Assembly (NCBI GenBank): GCA_021793295.1
Contig: JAJYTA010000015.1
Coordinates: forward strand, 1 to 42,202
Length of the DNA stretch: 42,202 nucleotides
From: Actinomycetes bacterium
GTDB lineage: Bacteria > Actinomycetota > Actinomycetes > Jiangellales > Jiangellaceae
Direction of reading: 5' to 3'
Shown here piece after piece: positions 1,054 through 1,113 of this stretch. The notes under the pieces were generated by a model that saw nothing but the letters and a program-made list of their open reading frames with translations, was not told the origin of the DNA and made no database searches. The position numbers and the translations under genes were made by a program. Numbering within the stretch: position 1 is the first letter of the stretch; each line of letters opens with the position of its first letter.

Positions 1054-1113
1054 ATGGGTTCGATAACAGGCTGCGTAGCGTTCTGGCGGCTCCGCCAGTT
1101 CGCTACGGCGTAG
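1054..1113 (+). CDS. Erm leader peptide with WRLR stalling motif
   Basis: The 19-residue frame MGSITGCVAFWRLRQFATA ends with TAG and lies 142 bases before the methyltransferase start. Residues 12-14 are Arg-Leu-Arg, the +X+ motif at which macrolide-bound ribosomes are known to stall (for example in the ErmD leader, MRLR). No Shine-Dalgarno sequence is present, but a -10 box directly upstream suggests a leaderless message. The codons from Val8 to Thr18 are built into a strong hairpin, so a ribosome halted at RLR would open it. Together with the downstream hairpins this fits drug-induced attenuation control of erm. The peptide itself is inferred only from sequence and position. Confidence 0.75.
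   Translation: MGSITGCVAFWRLRQFATA
1074..1107 (+). promoter_or_regulatory. Hairpin H1 overlapping the leader peptide codons
   Basis: CGTAGCG (1074-1080) pairs with CGCTACG (1101-1107), and CTGGCGG (1083-1089) with CCGCCAG (1092-1098); a TT/TT mismatch separates the two stems. All of it lies within the leader-peptide codons that include the Arg-Leu-Arg motif. Confidence 0.8.

Follow-up and report, generated by a model that had tools for sequence, protein, structure and literature searches.

Upstream of Erm-like genes in actinomycetes: candidate leader peptides with an Arg-X-Arg motif and a predicted leaderless start

Stalling at Arg-X-Arg (RXR, or +X+) sequences is best known from Bacillus ermD: during synthesis of the ErmDL leader peptide the ribosome halts at Arg-Leu-Arg, Leu occupying the P site and Arg the A site, and stalling by erythromycin depends on RXR less strictly than does stalling by the ketolide telithromycin (PMC8298421). 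The ermC translational attenuator combines a leader ORF with mutually exclusive RNA pairings (PMC13410324). For erm(X) of corynebacteria a leader gene has been annotated, and attenuation inducible by erythromycin is believed to be its mode of action (PMC3350403); a survey published in 2024, in which regions upstream of erm genes were examined with ORFfinder, described uORFs and no universal pattern (PMC11264731). In leaderless genes of Actinobacteria, for their part, TANNNT precedes the start codon by about 12-13 bp and a Shine-Dalgarno sequence is missing (PMC3160421, PMC3898074).

The locus compared here with these systems lies in a 42,202-nt stretch of DNA (the window, meaning the whole stretch analysed), and all its features are on the forward strand. 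A -10 element of the form TANNNT (TAGGCT, 1041-1046) stands 7 nt upstream of the ATG of a short, predicted leaderless ORF of 19 codons (MGSITGCVAFWRLRQFATA, 1054-1113, with the stop codon TAG at 1111-1113), which is followed after 142 nt by the GTG of an Erm-like gene. Codons 12-14 of the leader, CGG CTC CGC (1087-1095), encode Arg-Leu-Arg, the expected stall site of macrolide-bound ribosomes. From the placement of the -10 motif, the transcript is likely to start at the A of the leader ATG or adjoining it.

Like ErmDL, this is a short ORF before erm with Arg-Leu-Arg, but in ErmDL the motif occupies codons 6-8, the flanking residues and RNA folds differ, and here the start is predicted to be leaderless. 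The erm(X) leader (MLISGTAFLRLRSNR) likewise begins 7 nt after a -10 element, whereas its sequence is unrelated to that of the window leader outside the RXR region. As in ermC, a leader ORF is combined with alternative RNA pairings, which here are predicted, but sequestration of the erm ribosome site, a feature of ermC, would be only a tentative parallel in the window. ErmCL is not usually described as containing RXR. Ramu, Mankin and Vazquez-Laslop, who reviewed drug-dependent stalling in 2009, reportedly listed leaders of the RLR class. The window leader in its -10 spacing, and the leaders as a group in having no clear Shine-Dalgarno excess, agree with leaderless genes of Actinobacteria, although the surveys of those genes cover ordinary protein genes and this ORF would be a regulatory leader peptide.

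The downstream gene (1256-2083, GTG start) encodes a probable 23S rRNA adenine methyltransferase. It is termed Erm-like because the Erm profile, NCBIfam NF000499, is its best match (179.7 bits, with KsgA far behind at 118 bits) but lies under the curated cut-off of 212 bits, because Erm(38) is the nearest solved chain to its product, and because rsmA is separate from it, being a second, weaker match in the window's genome (G000:C160). The Erm-like clade of the whole family to which the window belongs scores 149-185 bits on NF000499, and an Erm-like gene and rsmA are both present in every near-complete genome of that family. The gene has a probable Shine-Dalgarno sequence, GTGAT within GGTCGTGAT (1246-1250), which in A2 is kept at a distance of 8-9 nt upstream of the erm start. 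In genera g6 and g2 (loci L015-L020) the Erm-like proteins have open frames of 213-249 residues, compared with 276 in the window, and align to the window protein only up to residue 221-238 or so; in this they resemble Erm(37) and Erm(41), which are likewise short.

The leader recurs throughout the window's family; Erm relatives and family structure put the window in an actinomycete order that a single family represents in the set analysed. The family set comprised 22 genomes, of which 20 have a comparable erm locus, and the leaders of all 20 loci are built alike: TANNNT, 6-7 nt, ATG or GTG, 19-21 codons, R-X-R, and TA or AA at the C-terminus. The two genomes that lack a leader (G004 and G005) are small, 75-81% complete, and gave only distant matches. 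The preliminary description had placed a 19-residue frame behind TANNNT and just 5' of an Erm gene, and this arrangement was confirmed in the window and recurs at all 20 family loci, where TANNNT is kept despite variation in its three middle bases. RXR is invariant in the form R-[L/P/I]-R. Its first Arg codon is CGG, CGT, CGC or AGG and its second CGC or CGT, while the middle residue changes among Pro, Leu and Ile; because the Arg codons vary synonymously while X is replaced, selection appears to act on the +X+ peptide. The exact leader DNA, used as a search pattern, matched the sister species only: conservation of the leaders lies in motif and peptide rather than in the DNA. A related-locus search of genome contigs returned two distant loci only, and the window region had no Rfam match at the gathering threshold. 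Short ORFs with RXR are common in GC-rich, Arg-rich DNA if promoter spacing is ignored, and the window ORF might be such a chance frame, devoid of function; the conservation at 20 of 20 loci and the control rates given below contradict this so strongly that it can practically be dismissed.

Beyond the family, a sample of 394 genomes of the class provided 69 erm genes over the NF000499 cut-off and one Erm-like gene below it, and the 600 bases upstream of each of these 70 genes were scanned under a strict rule (TANNNT, a spacing of 6 or 7, and a short ORF with RXR). A leaderless RXR leader was found upstream of 52 of the 70; 9 of 10 families are represented among them, as are 22 of 31 genera, and several of the remaining loci carry RXR leaders that fail the strict rule. 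As background, the same scan returned 0/70 on the reverse complements of the erm upstream regions and 0/40 upstream of rsmA in the same class, and leaderless RXR short ORFs occurred in 0.4% of dinucleotide shuffles of the other-family erm upstream regions (0.2-1% according to the permitted spacing); for shuffled regions of the window's own family the rate was 1.25%. Because the genomes are related, the 52 leaders are non-independent events, but the contrast with the controls is still large. The preliminary description held that absence of the peptide or of its RLR from relatives would speak against a stalling leader; the relatives, inside and outside the family, show the opposite. Its proposed stalling leader before erm is thus supported in the general form RXR, whereas RLR as such is a special case, X being Pro, Ile or Leu in most leaders.

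Spacing bears on how these leaders are started. In 46 leaders outside the window's family the distance from TANNNT to the start codon is exactly 7 nt, a sharp peak, and Shine-Dalgarno matches of at least 5 bases accompany 8 of 75 leaders, compared with about 6% of random positions, which is no clear excess. Both observations support the leaderless start that had been proposed for the window leader. The alternative, in which the leader is read from a longer, led transcript and the TANNNT match is incidental, is improbable in view of the spacing peak, the presence of TANNNT at every family locus and the Shine-Dalgarno figures.

One genome, G122, has two Erm-like genes (L080 and L103), each with a leaderless RXR leader of its own, MSGITGQHAACAVGVNFFRLRT... 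and MPCLCFIRIRHGRALAR. Leaders of family f19 (L049, L051, L053-L056) share the long form M[AG]AxNAI..GLGRG...HS.R[MK]RRGPGALTG, with RXR near codon 22-25, which suggests a distinct, ErmSV-like subtype. Among named genes, leaderless RXR leaders with a spacing of 7 precede erm(36) (MGSPSIAVTRFRRF), erm(X) and erm(50) (plasmid copies), and also a Nocardioides erm and an unannotated Nonomuraea match. In erm(46) of Prescottella the leaderless start is GTG and the spacing 6; in P. equi (L148, about 510-560), the position that the first Arg of R-F-R holds in erm(36) is taken by Glu, so that +X+ is lost there, a change that might alter inducibility.

The leader RNA has a marked propensity to fold. The region 1054-1258 folds far better than shuffles (z -7.1), and within it 1070-1115 folds at -28.1 kcal/mol (z -4.3). 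Three elements recur among the loci: hairpin H1 in the leader ORF (1074-1107, CGTAGCG..CTGGCG-GCTC-CGCCAG..CGCTACG) and a middle hairpin, H2 (1122-1147), both from folding, and H3 (1159-1207, AAACCGCGCC...GGCGCGGTTT), a terminator-like stem with covariation exceeding that of all 500 shuffles. The shape of H1 is kept in genera g1 and g3; its covariation is no better than in shuffles, and as part of an ORF it has little room to covary. The strong hairpin of the preliminary description is retained, and the position given there for RLR, the loop and 3' arm, is slightly corrected: at Arg12 (CGG, 1087-1089) the 5' arm passes into the loop, Leu13 (CTC) forms the loop, and Arg14 (CGC) lies in the 3' arm. 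H3 is a strong covarying stem in 18 loci and is altered in L016 and L018, which retain the leader and the pairing of its end described next.

The last codons of the leader, running into the stop (TACGGCGT, 1104-1111), pair with a segment some 40 nt downstream of the leader end (GCGCCGTA, 1152-1159). This pairing covaries between genera, with four pairs invariant and three changed on both sides, and 89% of cells are paired, compared with 15-52% when the segments are slid by 1-3 columns. Duplex prediction gives it in most loci, and in genus g6 a change of GCG to GCA in an Ala codon is compensated downstream. The leader end is proposed to act as a switch arm. In free RNA a competing stem, GGGAGCG (1148-1154) with CGCTCCC (1222-1228), which encloses H3 and so spans 1148-1228, is predicted, and it is part of the consensus fold of 14 loci. 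In constrained folding (H3 figures unusable for L001, L002 and L010), leader-end pairing is predicted in most relatives only when a ribosome is modelled at RXR, with loss of the competing stem, whereas with a ribosome at the stop codon leader-end pairing is unable to form. In the window itself the modelling gives a weak switch, with a value of only 0.08 for leader-end pairing in the stalled state.

How such a fold might be read out can be weighed against two schemes. If the locus worked by transcription attenuation of the ermK type, H3 would be an intrinsic terminator and the stalled ribosome would block it. The strength and covariation of H3, and the CTTTTC that follows it in the sister genus g3, agree with this, but in the window no terminator match was found, H3 has no clear U-tract there, and the leader-end pairing ends where H3 starts. 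H3 is moreover predicted with or without a stalled ribosome; being predicted in every state, it is not the regulated step as modelled, and this scheme is doubtful. A direct form of translational attenuation, in which the leader end sequesters the erm ribosome site until a stalled ribosome masks the leader end, can be entertained only tentatively: the two are complementary over 9-11 pairs in several relatives (e.g. L017 and L011), but the match in the window is no better than in shuffles (0.34), several other loci are weak too, and H1 competes locally for the same leader-end bases; a region-3 control, misplaced in L002, L010 and L014, is left out of this comparison. The erm ribosome site of the window has a mean unpaired probability of about 0.3-0.35 across all modelled states.

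The interpretation preferred here, which is held with good though not full confidence, is that the 60-bp ORF encodes the leader peptide of an erm attenuator that macrolides induce, and that the transcript on which it is translated is leaderless. Because the same arrangement precedes most of the erm genes checked across actinomycetes, it probably senses macrolides and turns resistance on. The transcript would begin at or next to the leader ATG, and in the absence of drug ribosomes would traverse the leader and depart, allowing the RNA downstream to take its default fold. A ribosome with bound macrolide or ketolide would stall, by analogy with ErmDL, when Leu13 occupies the P site and Arg14 the A site. 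It would cover H1, shielding some 15 bases on its downstream side, and leave the RNA free from about 1106 onward. The freed leader end could then pair with 1152-1159, which is the presumed induced state; this pairing would exclude the stem 1148-1154/1222-1228 and thereby give more Erm, the last step being exerted through transcription, translation of erm or stability of the mRNA. Among possible inducers, natural ketolides are plausible, given the less strict need of erythromycin than of telithromycin for RXR in ErmDL.

RXR-type erm leaders are already known, both from ErmDL and, in actinomycetes, from the annotated leader gene of erm(X). Of the leaderless RXR leader put forward in the preliminary description, the RXR frame is confirmed at this locus and the leaderless start is supported. 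It is leaderless initiation as the common form of actinomycete erm leader that looks new: in the freely accessible literature searched, no paper was found that joins erm leaders with leaderless initiation or that calls the erm(X) leader leaderless. With somewhat better than even confidence, leaderless initiation is proposed as the default route of macrolide sensing for actinomycete erm genes. The promoter would direct transcription to begin at the first codon of the RXR leader, sensing would begin on a 70S ribosome at a bare 5' end, and the architecture would be an old, class-wide one that searches based on Shine-Dalgarno sequences do not target.

If so, leader peptides at the extreme 5' end of the mRNA would mediate the induction of most genes for intrinsic macrolide resistance in actinomycetes, among them those of soil producers and some that clinical species carry on plasmids. 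Ordinary gene calling passes over ORFs as short as these, and since uORF4u, a tool for finding leaders of this kind, includes a Shine-Dalgarno search among its steps, leaderless ones may escape it as well. Two questions would become open to experiment: by what steps a ribosome with bound drug, having initiated on a leaderless mRNA, stalls and alters the RNA fold, and whether stalling at RXR serves as the main sensor in a phylum other than that of Bacillus.

Near the locus, positions 678-911 of the window contain copies, both direct and inverted, of an intergenic repeat of the dispersed type, GTCGTGAWGATCGTCGTG. Across the window's genome it has 147 exact matches (77 forward and 70 reverse), mostly in small clusters in which the copies are about 40 bp apart and flipped in orientation, in the manner of REP or BIME-type elements.
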